Positions 11,022-21,064 of a DNA stretch of 42,097 bases are shown piece after piece. The DNA lies in assembly GCA_021790455.1 (NCBI GenBank), contig JAJYDY010000003.1, forward strand, positions 1 through 42,097. Direction: 5' to 3'. Origin of the DNA: Microcaldota archaeon (GTDB lineage: Archaea > Micrarchaeota > Micrarchaeia > Micrarchaeales > Micrarchaeaceae). The notes beneath the pieces were generated by a model, which had not been told where the DNA came from, did no database searches, and saw nothing but the letters and a program-made list of their open reading frames with translations. Position 1 is the stretch's first letter, and each line of letters begins with the position of its first letter. The translations under genes and the position numbers were made by a program.

Positions 11022-13136
11022 TCACTGCTGCATATTCTGCATGAACTCCCTCACACGAAGAGCAGCTTTTATCCCACTGGCTGCAGCTGTTCCGGCTTGC
11101 CTGTAGAATCTATCAGAAACATCACCTGCAACGAATACGCCAGGGATTTCAGTAAGGACCTCCTCCTTCGTCACTATATAACCCTGGTCATCGAGCGACA
11201 ACTTCCCCTCCAGGAATTGCGTGTTTGGCACATAGCCTATCGCAATGAAGACTCCCTGGCACGGAATGGTCGATTCTTTTCCTGTATTCACGTCTTTTAT
11301 CCTAACACCCTCAACTCCAGTGACGTCTTTTCCAAGTATTTCCTCTACTGTGCTGTTCCAAACGACCTTTATCTTCGGATTTGAAAGAACAATCTGCTGC
11401 ATGATCTTGCTTGCCCTGAATGAATCCTTTCTATGCACTATCGTTACCTGTTTGACAAATCTAGTAAGGAAGTTTGAATCTTCCATCGCTGTGTCGCCTC
11501 CGCCTACTACAACGACGTTGTCCTTTCCTTTGAAGAACGCACCATCGCAGTTATGGACTATACTATTCGTGGTTACATAGGTATGGTTGCCCTCAACCGC
11601 CAAGTTGTAGACAAGGCCGTCATAAGATTTTTTAATGATCGTCTTAATTGGAAGGTGTACATAGTTGTCTATAATCCATGCGTGGTAGTTCCAGCGGTGC
11701 TTCTTCTTTGCCAACAGCGGATGGCGTTCATCTAGAACTTTAGACATCATCTTAATCCAAGGTCCGCCAATCACCAGCTGATAAACATCTCTCTTAAATC
11801 TAACTTCTCTGCCTTCTATTGTGCTGTGTTCAAGCGTTTTGAATCGCCTTTTCTCCAAGTGGGGCAGTATGTTTAGCCTTAATAGAATCATCTTTAGCTG
11901 CTCTGCAAGTTCCCTTGAACTCGTCGTTATTACAAAATCTTCTGCACGCGTGCATCCATCACCTCGCCACATTCCTTTTATCAATTCTTTCTGTAAACTT
12001 CTTTCCATAGTAACAAAAAGATGCGGCATTCTCTTTTCGTGCGAATATTTCGAAAACCATTTTTGGAAAAGCTTACTCAATATCATTGAGTAAACAGTAA
12101 CCTTTAATACAGATTTCTCTGGTTTTATTGCAGCATCCAAACCAAATTTCCTTTTAATTATGCGCTTAACATCTCTAGCATATTCGGTTTCTTTGATATT
12201 AAATGCAAATGACATTCCTCTGCTGTGAGAGTATCCCTCAGAAAGATAGTATCCAACAAGCCTGCCAAAATCTTTATCGACGTTTATGGTGTTTGGTAAT
12301 CTGTGAGATGTGTGTGTTTCATGGAGCTGCATAACTCTTCCTTTGTTATCTAATCTTAACTTCAGTTCTTTACTGATGTCAAATTTGAACAATGTAGCTG
12401 TTTTTTTTACAATCGGGTATAGTACAACGTGTCTTTTGTTTAACTCGCCAGCCTCTACCCAAAAAGGTTTCGACCAGGAAACTTTGTGGTAGTTTACGCC
12501 TTTGCCCCTTTTTAGCGTTTTTACTAAAACAGGATGGTTTGGTGTTAGAAAGGTATACTCTGAACGGAAAAGCCTTGTTTTAAAGCCTATTAGTTCTCCC
12601 TTATATTTTCTTTTCATTACCTCAGCGACTGGTCTGAATGTACCATCGACAGTTAGGACTCTCATACCTTTTGCAGTTTGGCCTATTTTTTTAGTTGATG
12701 GATTAGAAACTATAAGTGAATTTGGTGGTAAGCAAGTAGCGCAGGTGCTTACCCCCTTCCCCATGTGCTCCATCTCTGAAGGAATGCCAAGAGTCCTTGC
12801 GTTTGCGCCAGTAGAAATTATTATCGTGTGCGCCTGATAGGTATTTTCTGCTGTTTTTACTGTGAAAGGCCTTTTGCTGAAATCCACTTCCGTAACATCC
12901 TCTGCTATCATCCTCGCGCCGAACTTCTGCGCCTGCTTGGTCATGCCATCAATAAGCTCAGGACCTTGCACTCCATTAGGGAAACCTGGATAGTTCTCGA
13001 CGGTGGTGGTAAGAAGGAGCTGACCGCCTGCGATTGAACCTGTAATCATAAGAGGCTTGAAATCTTCCCTTGCAGTGTATATCGCTGCAGAAAGTCCGGC
13101 TGGACCAGATCCTATTATTATCACATTCTCTATCAT
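11022..13136 (-). CDS. trxB: Thioredoxin reductase precursor containing an in-frame intein
   Basis: N-extein MIENVIIIGSGPAGLSAAIYTARE...STCAT; C-extein CDGAFFKGKDNVVVVGGGDTAMEDSNFLTRF...GVFVAGDV. Removing 395 aa leaves a normal-length TrxB of 309 aa. Confidence 0.95.
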   Translation of the reverse strand: MIENVIIIGSGPAGLSAAIYTAREDFKPLMITGSIAGGQLLLTTTVENYPGFPNGVQGPELIDGMTKQAQKFGARMIAEDVTEVDFSKRPFTVKTAENTYQAHTIIISTGANARTLGIPSEMEHMGKGVSTCATCLPPNSLIVSNPSTKKIGQTAKGMRVLTVDGTFRPVAEVMKRKYKGELIGFKTRLFRSEYTFLTPNHPVLVKTLKRGKGVNYHKVSWSKPFWVEAGELNKRHVVLYPIVKKTATLFKFDISKELKLRLDNKGRVMQLHETHTSHRLPNTINVDKDFGRLVGYYLSEGYSHSRGMSFAFNIKETEYARDVKRIIKRKFGLDAAIKPEKSVLKVTVYSMILSKLFQKWFSKYSHEKRMPHLFVTMERSLQKELIKGMWRGDGCTRAEDFVITTSSRELAEQLKMILLRLNILPHLEKRRFKTLEHSTIEGREVRFKRDVYQLVIGGPWIKMMSKVLDERHPLLAKKKHRWNYHAWIIDNYVHLPIKTIIKKSYDGLVYNLAVEGNHTYVTTNSIVHNCDGAFFKGKDNVVVVGGGDTAMEDSNFLTRFVKQVTIVHRKDSFRASKIMQQIVLSNPKIKVVWNSTVEEILGKDVTGVEGVRIKDVNTGKESTIPCQGVFIAIGYVPNTQFLEGKLSLDDQGYIVTKEEVLTEIPGVFVAGDVSDRFYRQAGTAAASGIKAALRVREFMQNMQQ
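11550..12734 (-). mobile_element. Intein (395 aa) with LAGLIDADG-like homing endonuclease domain inside trxB
   Basis: Block A CLPPNSLIVSN; block B-like YTFLTPNHPVLV; LAGLIDADG-like LVGYYLSEG and LIKGMWRGDG; block F VYNLAVEGNHTYVTTNS; block G IVHN followed by Cys+1. Boundary codons TGC (12732-12734) and AAC (11550-11552) checked. Confidence 0.95.
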
Positions 13137-14316: not shown

Positions 14317-14649
14317 TTATTTACTTACAACACCAGTAACTTTTGGATTTTGTAACGTGCTTATCAAAATAGTTTTACTAGCTGCCTCTATTTTGATGCC
14401 ATCAACATTTGCGCTGGTTATGGCAGCATCCAGCCAATTTTGATAGCTAGAATTAGTCGTCATATTTTGGTCGGTATTCATTATCACAGTATAAAACGTT
14501 TCTATCGCTACTAGGTTTGAATATTCAGCAAGCTGACCTGCCTGTTCAATATTGCCATTTGACACTTGGCTTGTTAATGTAATAAGATACGCAACGGAGC
14601 TTATTGAAGTTATCGCAATAAGAAGACCGAAGAAACCCACGTTATCCAC
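14317..14649 (-). CDS. Pilin-like membrane-anchored small protein (GTG start)
   Basis: GTG at 14649 gives VDNVGFFGLLIAITSISSVAYLITLTSQ...; N-terminal hydrophobic helix; 8-nt overlap with the upstream gene's stop. The track's 14781 start would overlap the neighbour out of frame. Confidence 0.6.
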   Translation of the reverse strand: MDNVGFFGLLIAITSISSVAYLITLTSQVSNGNIEQAGQLAEYSNLVAIETFYTVIMNTDQNMTTNSSYQNWLDAAITSANVDGIKIEAASKTILISTLQNPKVTGVVSK

Positions 14650-15034
14650 CACATACAGTAAGACAAACCTGCTCGAATGTGCCGTTTGCACTAACGGGAA
14701 AACATTCTGTCTTTTCTGCCGCACACGTGCCAAAGCTTCCGACTTCGGTGCTTTTATTATTGATGGCAAGCAGGGATCCATCGAACGAATATTCTGAGTT
14801 TATATCCTTCAATAATGCTGAAATGCATTCCTTGTTTGATGATAGGATACAAGACCTAAAAGAAGCGTTTCTATAGAGGATCCCAGTAAAATCATAGAAT
14901 ACGTTCTGCATGCCAAAATCGATTCCGCGTTGAGATGTTGAAATTGAGTAAGATATTGATATTGCTGTGCCAACTACCGCTGACAGTGTTAATGAAGAGA
15001 GGAGGGCTTCTATCATTGCCATTTGCGCTTTCAT
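14642..15034 (-). CDS. Pilin-like protein, pilus operon
   Basis: MKAQMAMIEALLSSLTLSAVVGTAISISYSIS N-terminal helix, Cys-containing globular part; in operon order. Confidence 0.7.
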   Translation of the reverse strand: MKAQMAMIEALLSSLTLSAVVGTAISISYSISTSQRGIDFGMQNVFYDFTGILYRNASFRSCILSSNKECISALLKDINSEYSFDGSLLAINNKSTEVGSFGTCAAEKTECFPVSANGTFEQVCLTVCGG

Positions 15035-15038
15035 AGAA

Positions 15039-16370
15039 CTACCTTATCTCTATCGATGAACCCTGATATTGGACCGATTGGTTTAGCCCATTATAACCAT
15101 AGATAAATGTCGCTATGTCGTAACTGAATGGCATTGTTGGTCTGCACGAATAGGATGTTGGAGAGCGCACTGGATAGAAGAGGCAATTGTTTGGCTGGAT
15201 TGATTTTGCACCAAGGAGTGTCTTTTCGTAATTTAGAAGATAGGCGAGCGTCTTTTGTATATAGTTCAATGTATCGCTCCCGACCCATGTATTGTTGTTT
15301 ATATTAAGGAGATTTACAAGAGATGCGTCGGTATTCGAATAGTTTTCATAATATGTATAATTAATCGCTGTGTCGTTCCCAGACTTATCAAGCACCGCGT
15401 AAATCAGATAGGGTGGAGGGAGGATCGACCCAGTATAAGTGCTATTGATATAGATACTGCCTGCTGGCGTGCTATTCTTAAAATACAAGTTTGCGCGCCT
15501 AGATTGACTTGTAAAGTTGGCTTCTAATGTATAACCAGCGTTTCCTAGGCTTATGGCAGCGCTATAAACATAGCTCTGCTCAGGTGTAAGAGTCCCTACT
15601 TTACTCGTTGTTTTGTTTTCTGCAAAGCAGTAATAGCGATCTTGACCATCCCACCAGAACCTATTGCAAGTGTTATCTGAAACTATAAATCCCCAGGTGT
15701 TGCTTCCACATTGCCACGGTTCCTTCTCCCTGCCACTAGCGTTATGGTATGCACAATGTGACCATGAGTACATCGATTCTACATTGTTCTGTTGCGCAAT
15801 CGGGAAGAATACGCTCTCATTCCTGTTGTTGATGGTGGCGATGAAGTTATTGCCCGCAGTCGTATTCCCTAAGGCGCTTTGCCGGAGCGCATAAGTATAA
15901 GCGTTCGCCGTTACATTCAAAATGGAGTTGCTGGCATTGCTGAAAGTGCCGATTATAGTAAATTTGAGTGGTCCTTCCTCCGTTGGCAGATAAGAAAAAG
16001 TGAGCGCACCTATTGAGGAGTAGGGGACCGCTATAAGTTCTGGCGGAAGAATTGAAACGTTCGGTATTGAGCTTATGCGAATGCGCTCTAAGTTATAAGA
16101 TTTAGGGTAGGCGACAACTACTTCCAAGCTCCCACTTTTGTTTATATAGCTCACATTAGAGACTACCGGAATGAGGCTTATATTGCCGGAATATCCTGTC
16201 GTTGTATTTGAACTGTGCGCATTGTACAAGGTCTGGTTATCTAGCGTTTCATACGCTGCGTTCTGCGCGCCCTGCAAATGCAGGTACTGGCTTAATACAA
16301 AAATGCTGAAAAGCGCCACTGCAGACAGTAACACTATGAACTCAAGGCTCGTTTGTAGTCGCATTGTCAT
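15039..16370 (-). CDS. Large pilin-like/surface protein with class III-type signal peptide
   Basis: MRLQTSLEFIVLLSAVALFSIFVLSQYL; N-x-S/T-rich 443-aa ectodomain; overlaps the upstream gene. Confidence 0.75.
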   Translation of the reverse strand: MTMRLQTSLEFIVLLSAVALFSIFVLSQYLHLQGAQNAAYETLDNQTLYNAHSSNTTTGYSGNISLIPVVSNVSYINKSGSLEVVVAYPKSYNLERIRISSIPNVSILPPELIAVPYSSIGALTFSYLPTEEGPLKFTIIGTFSNASNSILNVTANAYTYALRQSALGNTTAGNNFIATINNRNESVFFPIAQQNNVESMYSWSHCAYHNASGREKEPWQCGSNTWGFIVSDNTCNRFWWDGQDRYYCFAENKTTSKVGTLTPEQSYVYSAAISLGNAGYTLEANFTSQSRRANLYFKNSTPAGSIYINSTYTGSILPPPYLIYAVLDKSGNDTAINYTYYENYSNTDASLVNLLNINNNTWVGSDTLNYIQKTLAYLLNYEKTLLGAKSIQPNNCLFYPVRSPTSYSCRPTMPFSYDIATFIYGYNGLNQSVQYQGSSIEIR

Positions 16371-16728
16371 CCACCATTAAATAGTATTGATCTCCCGCTA
16401 TAGTCACAATTCTTTTTATTTCATAATCGTCTGTTTGAATTCCGTTTGCAGAAGAAAATTTGGATAGGGAATACCTATCACCAAAATAACCTTTCAGTAC
16501 CTGCATTGCTAATGAGAGCGTCATGCCTGGTGACTCGATTATTGATATTGCATGCTGGACTTGCGCTTCTGAAGACAACATTGAACTTACGCTTATCCCC
16601 TGAGCAATCGAAGTGCCGCTTGCTATAGAAAGCTTCACGATGAATAAGGCGAAGAAGGCGGAGAATAGAGTAATTGCAATCAGAATTTCCAGGCTTAGAA
16701 CCATACCCTTTACTGATCTCGACTTCAT
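16342..16728 (-). CDS. Pilin-like protein
   Basis: VKGMVLSLEILIAITLFSAFFALFIVKLSIA; ATGA overlap with the upstream ORF. Confidence 0.7.
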   Translation of the reverse strand: MKSRSVKGMVLSLEILIAITLFSAFFALFIVKLSIASGTSIAQGISVSSMLSSEAQVQHAISIIESPGMTLSLAMQVLKGYFGDRYSLSKFSSANGIQTDDYEIKRIVTIAGDQYYLMVDDNATTNEP

Positions 16729-16925
16729 ACTATCACTCTAAGATTCCCGCTTTGCGGAAATGTGCTGTTTAAAATCAACGAAGACCTAGAAATCGAATTG
16801 GACAATATCCTAGATTCGCCGGATAAATGGGCTTCGTAGGCCATGCTGATAGAGAGCACAAGAAGGGAAAATGCCACAGCTACCGCAAGCACTATAAGGA
16901 ACTCAAAAAGAATCTGCGCCATCAT
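16725..16925 (-). CDS. Short pilin-like protein (66 aa)
   Basis: MMAQILFEFLIVLAVAVAFSLLVLSISMAYEA; 4-nt overlaps on both sides. Confidence 0.65.
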   Translation of the reverse strand: MMAQILFEFLIVLAVAVAFSLLVLSISMAYEAHLSGESRILSNSISRSSLILNSTFPQSGNLRVIV

Positions 16926-17308
16926 GGGTTAGCACCTGAAAACTCAACAAGAAAGGTTTGGTTCGGATAGCGCAACATTTGGATTTCAGCAATCTCCCCG
17001 CTATAAGCGCAAGCATGGCTTTGGTTAATGCTGACATTGCTGTTAAAATAGTAGCTGGCGTTTGAGAACTCTACACTCTCAGCGCCAAACCTTGAATCGC
17101 AGACTGCTGATGGGATATAGGCAGTGAAGCTTGCTTTCTGGTAGCCCATGTTTGCATTTATCGATGCTACCATTTCTTCCAATGAGGCTTTTCCACCAAT
17201 GCTTGATGCAATGGCGTTTCCCTTTATGTAGAGGGAGAGCACGATGACTAAAGACGCGGCTGATACTGCGGTGTAAATCAGGAACTCTAGTGAAACCTGT
17301 GCCTTCAT
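16922..17308 (-). CDS. Pilin with class III-type signal peptide
   Basis: MKAQVSLEFLIYTAVSAASLVIVLSLYIKG. Confidence 0.78.
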   Translation of the reverse strand: MKAQVSLEFLIYTAVSAASLVIVLSLYIKGNAIASSIGGKASLEEMVASINANMGYQKASFTAYIPSAVCDSRFGAESVEFSNASYYFNSNVSINQSHACAYSGEIAEIQMLRYPNQTFLVEFSGANP

Positions 17309-17315
17309 GAAATCA

Positions 17316-17555
17316 CTATTTTACGCTGCTGCTCAAGTTTGCAAGCTCATTTGCCAGCTGAGACCCTATGCTCTGATTCCCTCCTCCGAAAGAGTGCAGG
17401 GCGGTTCCCTTAAGCTGCATTATCATTGCTAGAGCTATGACTATGATTATGCTCACCGCTGAGAGCATCATTATGTACTCCAGCGATCCTTGCCCCCTCT
17501 TGGACTTTATGGGCACGAGCAATGTCCTTGACCAGTTTATGATTATGTCTATCAT
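17316..17555 (-). CDS. Pilin with canonical class III signal peptide
   Basis: KRGQGSLEYIMMLSAVSIIIVIALAMIMQLKGTALHSFGG. Confidence 0.85.
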   Translation of the reverse strand: MIDIIINWSRTLLVPIKSKRGQGSLEYIMMLSAVSIIIVIALAMIMQLKGTALHSFGGGNQSIGSQLANELANLSSSVK

Positions 17556-18353
17556 CTATCCACCTATAAGTGTAAACGCGAGATTCGAAGTTAAAGTGAA
17601 AAGAAAAAGACCAACAGCGGTAAATAGAGAGACTGTTGTCAAGATGTGCTTGGTGCTGTGCGTCTTACCAAAAACAGAATTAGAGTAGTTAATTATGACG
17701 AGATAACCTATGAATACTACAAAGAGGCTCATCACGCCAGCATTCTTGATCTGGGTGCTTAAGGTATTTGTAAACCTTATTATGTCAAGACTTATTCCTG
17801 CGAATATGGGAAAGAATACCGCCCCACCCATCTGGTTTATAGTAATTACATTTTCCATAGCGCCCAGAGTCTTCAGCCTATAGCTGTCTCTCTCCTTTGC
17901 ATTCTCCCTTACCGCGATGAGTGCAGGCTCTATGTCGCTGCCGGTTTCTAGCCCAACATCTACTACGTCAATCAATTCATTCAGATAAACTGAACCGTGG
18001 ATTTTCAATCCGGAGAAGGCGGATTCAGTCGGCATCCCGTCCCTTAACTTGGCGATGGCCTCTTTGAGAGTATTTGAAAAAATATAACTGCCGTTTGAGG
18101 TTGTCTCCAGAGCTGAAATGAGATTCTTTGATTTTGAATATTCGCTTATTAGGACATCAAGGAAGTTTATAGTATCCGAATCTATCCGACTAACGCTTTT
18201 CCCGGTCGCCAGCCTCTTTTTAAAAATAATAATGCCAAATCCAAGCGCGATTATGGAGATTGTAAAGTATCCAAAGATCGAAAACGCGGCACTTAGAATA
18301 AATAAAATGCTGCAAAAGAGGTTCCACCGCCATATTTCACTAATCTTCCTCAT
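17556..18353 (-). CDS. Type II/IV secretion system F-domain membrane protein (TadC/ArlJ-like)
   Basis: AIAKLRDGMPTESAFSGL, VDVGLETGSDIEPALIAVRENAKERDSYRLKTLGAMENVITI, multiple TM segments; contiguous with pilus genes. Confidence 0.8.
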   Translation of the reverse strand: MRKISEIWRWNLFCSILFILSAAFSIFGYFTISIIALGFGIIIFKKRLATGKSVSRIDSDTINFLDVLISEYSKSKNLISALETTSNGSYIFSNTLKEAIAKLRDGMPTESAFSGLKIHGSVYLNELIDVVDVGLETGSDIEPALIAVRENAKERDSYRLKTLGAMENVITINQMGGAVFFPIFAGISLDIIRFTNTLSTQIKNAGVMSLFVVFIGYLVIINYSNSVFGKTHSTKHILTTVSLFTAVGLFLFTLTSNLAFTLIGG

Positions 18354-19062
18354 TTAATCTCATCCTTATAATGCTAGAAGCCCCTGGCAGCACAGACAGG
18401 AGCACAGTTGAAAAAAGCAGAAATTGCGATTCTGAATAAGAGAGGATAGAGTAGCCTACAAAGGCAAAAACAGCAAGAGAGGGGAGTATGGTGCTGAATA
18501 CCATGCTTATTATGAGGTATCTCTGATTGGATCCTATCGCGCGCTCCCTCTTTATCAGAAAGTCCCTTGAAAGCCTGCTATGCGCGGTCTTAAGCGGATT
18601 CAGGATATTTCCAGTCTTTGAGTACTCGTATCCGACGGGCGTTAGGATATCGCTAACCTCACTGCTAAGGCTTTTCTCTGAGCAAATTGCACTGCCAAAG
18701 TCTTGACCAAAACACATCCGCTCCTTCAATCTTAGAAACACTTTAGAGATAGTGGTATTCCCATTACCCCTGCATGCCACTTCATTCATCCCTGAAAACA
18801 AGGGCATCCTACTGTCCTTCATTCTGCTGCCTAAAAGGCCTATGGCGCTTGACAGCTCTTTTATTTCTGCGTCCTTCTTTCGCTTCCTCGCCATCAAATT
18901 GTAGTAAGTGCCCACAAAAAGAGAAACAGAAATTATGATTGGCGCTGCAAAAAGCGCATTGTATCCGTTCGCTATGATTATGGTGGAAATAGCGATTGCA
19001 GGCGGCACAATCACTGAAAGTAGAAACTCCCTTGATACTACAGGCATCTCAGTTAACCTCAT
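18340..19062 (-). CDS. TadB-like pilus assembly membrane protein
   Basis: N- and C-terminal TM pairs flanking a helical domain (AIGLLGSRMKDSRMPLFSGMNEVA...GQDFGSAIC); between ATPase and TadC-like genes. Confidence 0.72.
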   Translation of the reverse strand: MRLTEMPVVSREFLLSVIVPPAIAISTIIIANGYNALFAAPIIISVSLFVGTYYNLMARKRKKDAEIKELSSAIGLLGSRMKDSRMPLFSGMNEVACRGNGNTTISKVFLRLKERMCFGQDFGSAICSEKSLSSEVSDILTPVGYEYSKTGNILNPLKTAHSRLSRDFLIKRERAIGSNQRYLIISMVFSTILPSLAVFAFVGYSILSYSESQFLLFSTVLLSVLPGASSIIRMRLNEED

Positions 19063-20599
19063 TGTATGCTGCTATATATTCATAGCTCGCCTTTCCAGAA
19101 TTTTTAGGAAGGCTCATCGAGCTCAGGAAGCGTGCGCGCCTTTTAAGTTCTTTTAGCGTTTCGGCTGCGGTCTCTCCGCTATATTCGGAAAACGCCTTTA
19201 TGACCTTCGAGGTTTTCAACGCCTCCTCATCGAAAACGCCATTTTTCATAATAGTATTAAGCTTTACGCCAAACGCGTCCTGCAGGCATGCATCAGTCTC
19301 CACTTCTCCCCTACTATGCCAATTGTATTCCACAATGCTCTCAAGATAGCGGCTCCCACCCGCATTCTGCATCATGAAAAGAGATAGATCGAGCATATTG
19401 AGTGCGTTTTGCTCCACCAGCATCGGAGCTGACACCAACCTGTTGATTATTGATATGCCATTGCTGCTGGTGTGCATCGTTGTCATAAATGGAATGCCGA
19501 GGTTTGCCCCTGAGAACGCCTCTTTTGCCTCGCTCCCCCTTATCTCACCTATTATCAATCGTTCCGGTCTCATGTGGAGTGCATTTACTATCTGGTCCCT
19601 TAAACCAATGGCGCCGCTTCTTGATGAACCCTGGAGTGGGATGACATTGATGAAATTAGGAAAGAACTTTAGTTCGTTGACGTCCTCCTCAATGGTGATA
19701 ATGCGCTGCCTTCTTCCGACAAGGGCATTGATTGCTAGAAGGAGCGAGGTCTTCCCGGACGCAGGTGCACCAGAGATGATCATATTCTTTTTCGACTCTA
19801 TTGCGAACCAAAGATAAGCAAGCGCAATTGGAGGAATAGCCTTTGTCTCTATCAGCCTTCTTATATCGATTCCCTTTCCCGTGTTTAGCCTGATTGATGC
19901 TGCAGCTCCTTTTACCGAATATGGCTTGAGCTGCGCGTGAACCCTGGATCCATCAGCCAATTGCGCATCTATTATGGGAAATGTTGAATTGAGTTCCTTT
20001 TCCGCCGCTGATATCAGCCTGTTTACCACGAGCCTAAAGCTGTTTTCACTGTTGAACTTTAGATTTGTAATGCATCTTCCGTACTTGGTATGGAAGACGG
20101 ATATGTTCGAGTCGGGAGAATTAATCTCTATTTCCTCTATGTTTGACGCGTCCTCAAGCAATATGCTAATTGGTCCATGACCTATTATGTCATGCGCAAC
20201 AAGATATGCGATTACATCCTTCCGCTCGTTCGTCTTAAAGTCCCTTAAGCTTTCCAGGCAGAGATCTAACGTTTTCCCTATCAGATTCTGATTTCCCTCC
20301 TGGGCCTGTAAACCGACAAGGTTGTTTATCACTTTCGCCTTTACCTTTCGTGCAATAGCTGCATCATTGCCGTTAAGATTCATAGCCAAGATTGAGTAAA
20401 GCGTCGTTCTCCCCTTAGTGCCTATTGCCCTGTGCAGGCCTTCGTCGGCATTGAGCACCTTGTCCGGGTAATCGTATGTGACGGAAAAGGTGAGGTCTGC
20501 AGTCTCGACAGGAGCCGCCTTCTCTTGGCCTGTATCTTGCTCTTTTATGCGGCTTTGCCGTGAAAAACTGCCAAAATTAAATAACACTCCGCCCACCAT
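19049..20599 (-). CDS. Archaeal type IV pilus/Tad secretion ATPase (CpaF/TadA/VirB11-like)
   Basis: Walker A SGAPASGKTSLLLAINALV, RIITIEEDVNELKF, Walker B RLIIGEIRGSEAKEAFSGANLGIPFMTTMHTSS. Confidence 0.92.
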   Translation of the reverse strand: MVGGVLFNFGSFSRQSRIKEQDTGQEKAAPVETADLTFSVTYDYPDKVLNADEGLHRAIGTKGRTTLYSILAMNLNGNDAAIARKVKAKVINNLVGLQAQEGNQNLIGKTLDLCLESLRDFKTNERKDVIAYLVAHDIIGHGPISILLEDASNIEEIEINSPDSNISVFHTKYGRCITNLKFNSENSFRLVVNRLISAAEKELNSTFPIIDAQLADGSRVHAQLKPYSVKGAAASIRLNTGKGIDIRRLIETKAIPPIALAYLWFAIESKKNMIISGAPASGKTSLLLAINALVGRRQRIITIEEDVNELKFFPNFINVIPLQGSSRSGAIGLRDQIVNALHMRPERLIIGEIRGSEAKEAFSGANLGIPFMTTMHTSSNGISIINRLVSAPMLVEQNALNMLDLSLFMMQNAGGSRYLESIVEYNWHSRGEVETDACLQDAFGVKLNTIMKNGVFDEEALKTSKVIKAFSEYSGETAAETLKELKRRARFLSSMSLPKNSGKASYEYIAAYNEVN

Positions 20600-20731: not shown

Positions 20732-21064
20732 ATGGTGGATAAGGAAAAAGCTAAAGATGAGATTTGGCTTCTTAGGAAGGCGCTCAGCAGACCAAACTAC
20801 GCCGTGATGCTGCTATTGCTGCAGAAGTCTCCGCGCACCACAAGGGAGCTCTACTCGATCCTTGAGAAGAAGTTCACGCGAAAGACGCTTATAATAACGC
20901 TCAGGGAGCTCTCTCTCGACCTGAATATAATACAGCCTACGCACATAAGGACGGAGAAGGGATATGGGCTCGGATACAGGCTGAATCCAAAGATAAAGCC
21001 AGTGATAAAAGGAGTTCAGAAGTTCGCAAAGATCCTTGACGGCATAAGGAACGTATCTAAGTAG
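20732..21064 (+). CDS. Winged-helix-like transcriptional regulator, divergent from the pilus operon
   Basis: WLLRKALSRPNYAVMLLLLQKSPRTTRELYSILEKKFTRKTLIITLRELSLDLNII resembles a wHTH; ATG at 20732, with a TATA-like ATTTATAAA near 20701. Confidence 0.65.
   Translation: MVDKEKAKDEIWLLRKALSRPNYAVMLLLLQKSPRTTRELYSILEKKFTRKTLIITLRELSLDLNIIQPTHIRTEKGYGLGYRLNPKIKPVIKGVQKFAKILDGIRNVSK

Follow-up and report, generated by a model that had tools for sequence, protein, structure and literature searches.

The operon and its described counterparts

Type 4 filaments begin their assembly from a minor-pilin tip complex that is capped by a subunit lacking the glutamate at position 5 (Glu5), and modular pilins bear grafted adhesive domains (PMC10191384). 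Within the Micrarchaeota, the main text of Golyshina et al. 2017 (PMC5498576) describes two type IV pilus systems for Candidatus Mancarchaeum acidiphilum Mia14, MIA14_0170-0177 (Methanococci-like) and MIA14_0252-0260 (euryarchaeal-like), with one FlaK-like peptidase and no archaellum, and gives key components of the Mia14 pilus system as common to many Micrarchaea. Here we analyse an operon of ten tightly packed genes on the minus strand (14317-20599) of a 42,097-nucleotide (nt) stretch of micrarchaeal DNA, contig JAJYDY010000003.1, hereafter the window, which is contig 9 of a metagenome-assembled genome (MAG) of 782 kb and 84% completeness. The operon encodes a motor ATPase, two platform proteins (TadB-like and TadC-like) and seven small proteins, P1-P7, and consists of two modules, an assembly core (ATPase-TadB-TadC-P1-P2) and a cassette (P3-P7). 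We think it probable that these genes build a thin, N-glycosylated, Tad/Epd-like type IV filament with P3-P7 as its tip complex, used most likely for attachment to an archaeal host or to neighbouring cells.

The window operon is most likely the orthologue of MIA14_0252-0260. Its copy in genome G021 has the ATPase at 229.9 kb, which by the Mia14 gene numbering (968 bases per gene) corresponds to about gene 240-255. The pilus system is thus already known in outline from Mia14, and its existence is not new. New relative to the main text of that paper are the two-module structure with a mobile cassette, the Flp-sized major pilin, the Glu5-less P7, the pattern of glycosylation sequons and the series of losses.

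A sequence-only reading of the window had listed ten minus-strand open reading frames (ORFs) in the order ATPase, TadB-like, TadC-like and seven small ORFs, and all ten were recovered in that place and on that strand. The ATPase (516 amino acids, aa; T2SSE/VirB11-type) occupies 19049..20599, the TadB-like platform half 18340..19047 (alternative upstream start 19062) and the TadC-like half 17556..18353; the platform proteins measure 240 and 265 aa, and P1-P7 79, 128, 66, 128, 443, 130 and ~107 aa. The reading's statement that most junctions overlap needs correcting, as about half (five) do so: TadB/TadC by 14 nt, P2/P3 and P3/P4 by 4 nt each, P4/P5 by 29 or 23 nt, and ATPase/TadB by 14 nt, or with a 1 nt gap if the start used by homologues is taken. 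The remaining junctions are gaps of 0-7 nt. Moreover, the last ORF, given as 154 aa, was a mechanical call; homologues place the start of P7 at GTG 14640, one nucleotide past the P6 stop, for a protein of 107 aa (MSFYG-type start in 44/46 homologues). P5 probably starts at 16364 (MRLQTSLEF, 441 aa) instead of at the start of the 443-aa ORF. The window contains no prepilin peptidase, as the reading had noted, and the genome has a single A24 prepilin peptidase, on contig C14.

The ATPase matches Pfam T2SSE (PF00437) at 9.1e-21, above the cut-off, with intact Walker A (GAPASGKTS) and Walker B-type (IIGEIRG) motifs. Its closest solved relatives are Archaeoglobus fulgidus GspE (2oap, 221 bits), CpaF (182) and FlaI (163), and similarity to the bindosome ATPase BasE is weak (81 bits). 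In an unrooted tree that held no Epd reference, the family forms a clade of its own (100/100 support), separate from FlaI, haloarchaeal PilB, Archaeoglobus GspE, CpaF and the ATPase of a second micrarchaeal system. An archaellum was rejected, the ATPase scoring 166 bits against the 550 cut-off of FlaI model NF058587 and the operon having no FlaH, FlaF or FlaG. As to the platform, TadC reaches the Pfam T2SSF cut-off (25.2 bits) and TadB matches T2SSF weakly (E 0.06). TadB aligns marginally to the C-terminal T2SSF half of a fused haloarchaeal platform (E 7.5e-4) and to bacterial TadB (E 1.1e-3); the counterpart of TadC, again by a marginal alignment (E 1.4e-3), is the N-terminal half of that platform. 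The two proteins are homologous to each other (E 5e-12). No second P-loop protein, as a TadZ or FlaH partner would be, occurs among the ten operon genes.

With a T2SSE-type ATPase, a T2SSF-type platform, pilins with class III leaders and a prepilin peptidase in the genome, the operon and its genome have genetic features of the type 4 filament superfamily. Two one-domain platform genes (TadC for the N-terminal and TadB for the C-terminal half, at marginal E values of ~1e-3) and a short major pilin are characteristic of the Epd/Tad group. In methanogens and Thermococci, the Epd-like (clade 1) pili likewise have a split platform, a major pilin of ~60-80 aa, class III QxSxE leaders and several minor pilins; unlike them, our operon is without EppA, a FlaH/MinD-type partner ATPase or a DUF2341 adhesin, and its gene order differs. 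The EppA peptidase (PF06847) was above the cut-off in 0/60 genomes, whereas control genomes carrying EppA gave matches, and a strictly EppA-dependent pilus was rejected on this ground. Bacterial Tad (type IVc) loci share the order ATPase-TadB-TadC-pilin-like genes, the single-domain platform proteins and the Flp-sized major pilin (compare locus L139), but secretin, pilotin, RcpC and TadZ are missing here and the ATPase falls outside the CpaF branch. The label Tad-like, as first given, stands for the architecture, with its split platform and tiny major pilin, and not for full membership. The architecture is Tad/Epd-like (PMC6668835), but because EppA is absent and no TadZ/FlaH partner is encoded, we file the operon as neither Epd nor Tad.

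Conservation, modules and loss

Gene order was surveyed in 76 loci, the window included, and presence or absence in 60 genomes, its own included; some genomes figure in both searches, and the counts are therefore not independent. The locus scan was built on patterns of this ATPase family, and remote relatives elsewhere lie beyond its reach. The 75 loci that the ATPase profile identified in named genomes belong to Micrarchaeota (including Mancarchaeum, Burarchaeum and Fermentimicrarchaeum), to uncultured archaea or to Marsarchaeota-labelled MAGs, the last of which look mislabelled. When profiles of the window genes are searched against other genomes, their counterparts turn up downstream of the ATPase. 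The operon extends as far as P7 in 46/76 loci. Of these 46, 44 are colinear, and the full set of nine ATPase partners is present in 41. Because the whole gene order is conserved in other Micrarchaeota, chance can be excluded. The sequence-only reading had let its case depend on association with the ATPase in relatives, and the association is close: a full-length ATPase is present in 38/60 genomes, with P5 in 35 of the 38 and in 0/22 without it, and P1 (counted at E < 1e-14) in 36/38 and 0/22. Among the exceptions are two loci at contig ends (G016 and G004) and one genome, G050, with a divergent ATPase.

The division into two modules is visible in the reduced operons. Ten loci end early with ample room downstream, nine of them after P1-P2 and one after P3, and P2 adjoins P1 in every reduced operon. 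The idea that reduced operons had lost P5 was dropped, since P5 was found elsewhere in six genomes whose operon is reduced or interrupted. The relocated genes retain the order P3-P4-P5-P6-P7 in four genomes (G013, G019, G039 and G037), while P4-P7 are found together in G006 and P5-P7 in G010. That the cassette moves as a block is evidence for a joint function of P3-P7.

Among the flanking genes tested, only a winged helix-turn-helix (wHTH)-like gene and, less widely, a DNA ligase gene remain beside the operon. The wHTH-like gene (plus strand, 20732..21064, with the ORF open from TTG 20684), a possible regulator, had no Pfam match at 0.001. It is divergent from the ATPase, usually 7-201 bp from its frame, in 57/75 named loci, with 57-98% identity; moreover, it is retained at L134, L136 and L137, where the operon has been lost. 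Altogether the operon is gone in four congeners (G001, G003, G005 and G008), in which an ATPase remnant frame of 287-315 aa persists (L134:7304-8167, L135:23-928, L136:7338-8225 and L137:6841-7788). In three congeners the remnant has the neighbours that the window ATPase has, the wHTH gene and the DNA ligase, and in G003 it meets the contig edge. These remnants comprise the C-terminal half and lack the N-terminal domain. Both Walker motifs, A and B, have decayed, but the C-terminal motifs EYxWxxRxE and SK are kept. The remnants are apparently catalytically dead, and because the frames stay open at ~30% identity they may be under selection for another role.

Further pilus-like loci were noted alongside. 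L112, L114, L115, L118 and L119 (Burarchaeum, Fermentimicrarchaeum and others) contain a relative of the ATPase and larger platform proteins with no recognisable P1-P7, and may represent an older or different branch. The second type IV pilus system, at L129, L130 and L133, comprises an ATPase of ~508-561 aa, a 233-aa protein, two platform genes and, on the opposite strand, very large pilin-like proteins (655-1220 aa) with GFIFTLDAVFALI-type starts. It is most likely the Methanococci-like system of Mia14, and its ATPase was not detected in the genome of the window. A third T2SSE ATPase (438 aa) lies beside FtsY at L001 (G000:C45), with a KAQSAMEYLMTYGWAIL-type class III protein nearby. Short class III-type matches, many of them in ~300-aa frames, recur across genomes (18 weak ones besides P1 in G013).

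The seven small proteins

All seven small ORFs had been called pilin-like. Judged by their N-termini this is borne out for most of them, and not for P7, which is no classical pilin. The canonical class III start Q-x-x-x-E is present in 63/64 homologues of P1, 62/64 of P2, 47/48 of P5 and 37/48 of P3, and P1 also passes the Class_IIIsignal cut-off. P6 (14642..15034; KAQMAMIEALL) has Q-x-x-x-x-E in 42/47, its glutamate coming a residue further downstream than that of P1, P2 and P5. The start of P4 (16342..16728) is non-canonical (e.g. KGMVLSLEILIAI), and its assignment as a minor pilin draws on synteny and on its movement with P5-P7. P7 (14317..14640; MGFFGLLIAIT...) has no leader and, in 45/46 homologues, no acidic residue within the first 16 aa, with an M..[YF]G start in 44/46; it is a predicted membrane-anchored, Glu5-less subunit and putative tip cap. 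An alternative assignment of P7 as a FlaF/FlaG-type beta-sandwich stator is unlikely, as its homologues in a second family shrink to ~50 aa, a helix with a short tail.

P1 (17316..17555; 79 aa, mature 58 aa, QGSLEYIMMLSAVSIIIVIALAM...) is likely the shaft subunit, a Flp-sized major pilin. It is the most conserved of the pilins and nearly all helix, its mature length is 56-62 aa in 62 homologues, and there is one strong copy per genome; against solved pilins it gave no match at E 1. The sequence-only reading had also made structure prediction of the short ORFs a test of the pilin assignment. For P2 (16922..17308), a minor pilin with two invariant cysteines, the AlphaFold2 (AF2) model, at a mean predicted local distance difference test (pLDDT) score of 94.8, has the expected form of a 50-residue N-terminal helix with a small beta barrel head. 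Foldseek returned no significant match to this model in the PDB (best E 0.45), and the head may differ from those of known pilins. Oligonucleotide-binding (OB) folds were abundant in the list, but at this E value we do not claim one for P2. P3 (16725..16925; 66 aa) is a putative mini-pilin.

P5 (15039..16364; 441-443 aa) is the large modular pilin that had been proposed as a tip or adhesin subunit. The proposal is strengthened by the mobile P3-P7 cassette and by six cysteines (C206, C221, C235, C248, C396 and C409) that are invariant or nearly so, and P5 remains a putative adhesin. Its AF2 model (pLDDT 83.5) shows a pilin helix with grafted beta domains: the helix is followed by one beta domain, by a second with 4/6 cysteines and by a mixed C-terminal domain. 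Part of the model, which by its length is probably the first beta domain, gave CARDB/Ig-like matches (E ~1e-3, template modelling (TM) score to the target 0.5-0.57). Sequence searches with P5 returned one weak pilin match only (PilA, E 0.006). It is very improbable, and kept as a lead, that the pilin stem of P5 bears an ectodomain resembling class II fusogens (fusexin-like), with which the tip would insert a disulfide-braced aromatic loop into host membranes or fuse them. Foldseek of the model (window 15039-16370) ranked HAP2 first in the PDB (E 1.3e-4), the best viral matches were mostly bunyavirus-type glycoproteins (best E 7.6e-6), and the stretch from Cys206 to Cys248 contains conserved aromatics. 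However, TM-scores normalised by P5 were at most 0.30, the domain order differs (N-terminal helix), and the P5 sequence search found no fusogen.

Surface exposure was assessed by comparing N-x-S/T sequons with the reversed S/T-x-N, since an excess is expected in ectodomains only under selection for N-glycosylation. The ratios for P1 to P7 were 3.1, 2.5, 3.5, 2.4, 2.4, 2.6 and 2.1 (818 against 348 for P5), whereas they were not raised in TadB (0.81), TadC (0.56) or the ATPase (55 against 78). The excess in the small proteins holds in 61/64 loci. The many sequons already remarked on in the 443-aa ORF are non-random, with 18 in the window P5 against 8.2 +/- 2.3 in shuffled sequences. Enrichment in P1-P7 but not in the ATPase or platform supports surface exposure of all seven, and oxidised extracellular heads would fit the conserved cysteines of P2 (two) and P5 (six). 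An STT3-type oligosaccharyltransferase is present in 34/60 relatives.

The predicted filament and its rivals

We propose that a hexameric ATPase would drive a platform of two half-proteins, TadB and TadC, and that the platform would lift P1, leader-processed to 58 aa of almost pure helix, from the membrane into a filament to which subunits are added from below. Leader cleavage would fall to the one A24 prepilin peptidase, whose gene lies on contig C14. P3-P7 would form a pre-assembled tip complex that primes assembly, a role suggested because its composition, with a Glu5-less P7 and a modular P5, matches known tip complexes; P7 would cap it, and P5, displayed at the tip, would bind a partner surface through its disulfide-braced beta head. 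The PilHIJK set of type IVa pili and the GspHIJK set of type II secretion systems likewise are co-encoded minor pilins that include one Glu5-less and one modular or large subunit (PMC10191384); they differ in that no sequence similarity to them was shown and in that P7, unlike GspK and PilK, is also leaderless. A tip cassette that is mobile would give archaea a parallel to the tip-priming complexes of bacteria.

The most likely use, attachment to a host, is suggested by lifestyle. Micrarchaeota are probably host-dependent; the main text of PMC5498576 describes Mia14 as dependent on Cuniculiplasma and cites electron microscopy of pili-like contacts between cells of the archaeal Richmond Mine acidophilic nanoorganisms (ARMAN) and larger, host-like cells. 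Several points weigh against this proposal. No STT3 homologue was found in this 84%-complete MAG; the P2 and P5 models lack a significant whole-fold match to a known pilin; P7 could be a protein of the membrane base instead of the tip; and, as many relatives have a second pilus system, host attachment need not be the task of this operon.

An adhesion pilus of the euryarchaeal clade 2 type, instead of a Tad/Epd-like one, is the class to which the main text of Golyshina et al. assigns the probable Mia14 counterpart MIA14_0252-0260 (PMC5498576), and the best solved relative of the ATPase is indeed Archaeoglobus GspE. We nevertheless regard this class as unlikely for our operon: instead of the fused two-domain platform of clade 2 there are two single-domain proteins, which with a Flp-sized major pilin are features of the Epd/Tad group (PMC6668835), and in the tree the ATPase stands apart from the AfGspE/haloarchaeal/FlaI clade. 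Less likely again is a secretion or pseudopilus machine, in the manner of type II secretion or a bindosome scaffold, whose short pilins push or present exoproteins with no long pilus. It would account for the small number of parts, the resemblance of the minor-pilin cassette to GspHIJK, the weak similarity to BasE and a P1 almost without head group, for which a thin or short filament is plausible; however, no exoenzyme or binding protein is conserved among the flanking genes tested, and a dedicated, highly conserved 58-aa P1 resembles a filament-forming Flp-type pilin. Bacteria take up or exchange DNA through type IV pili, and Sulfolobales exchange it by means of the Ups pilus. A Com-like uptake or exchange pilus drawing DNA from the host or neighbours would explain the reported gene transfer between Mia14 and Thermoplasmatales; the main text of PMC5498576 reports that Mia14 received genes horizontally from its host. 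There is, however, no retraction ATPase and no DNA-translocation gene beside the operon, and the 438-aa ATPase next to FtsY is unlinked to it; we hold this reading to be slightly more doubtful even than the pseudopilus.

The operon bears on host recognition and attachment in DPANN archaea, few of which have cultured hosts; for Micrarchaeota these are Cuniculiplasma and Scheffleriplasma. It is a concrete, conserved candidate for host attachment in which major pilin, tip cassette and adhesin are all predicted, and it makes testable predictions as to the shaft protein, the tip protein and an N-glycosylated filament. Moreover, genomes that have lost the system, some with an apparently dead ATPase, offer natural knock-outs for comparisons of host range.

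Lastly, a thioredoxin reductase gene of the window (11022-13136, minus strand) is split by a LAGLIDADG intein at ~11550-12734, a literature search giving no clear report of such an intein in this enzyme. The intein immediately precedes the second cysteine in the active-site motif CATC, and the enzyme of the sister species (G009) is uninterrupted. Because the +1 extein residue is the catalytic cysteine, splicing may be redox-linked.

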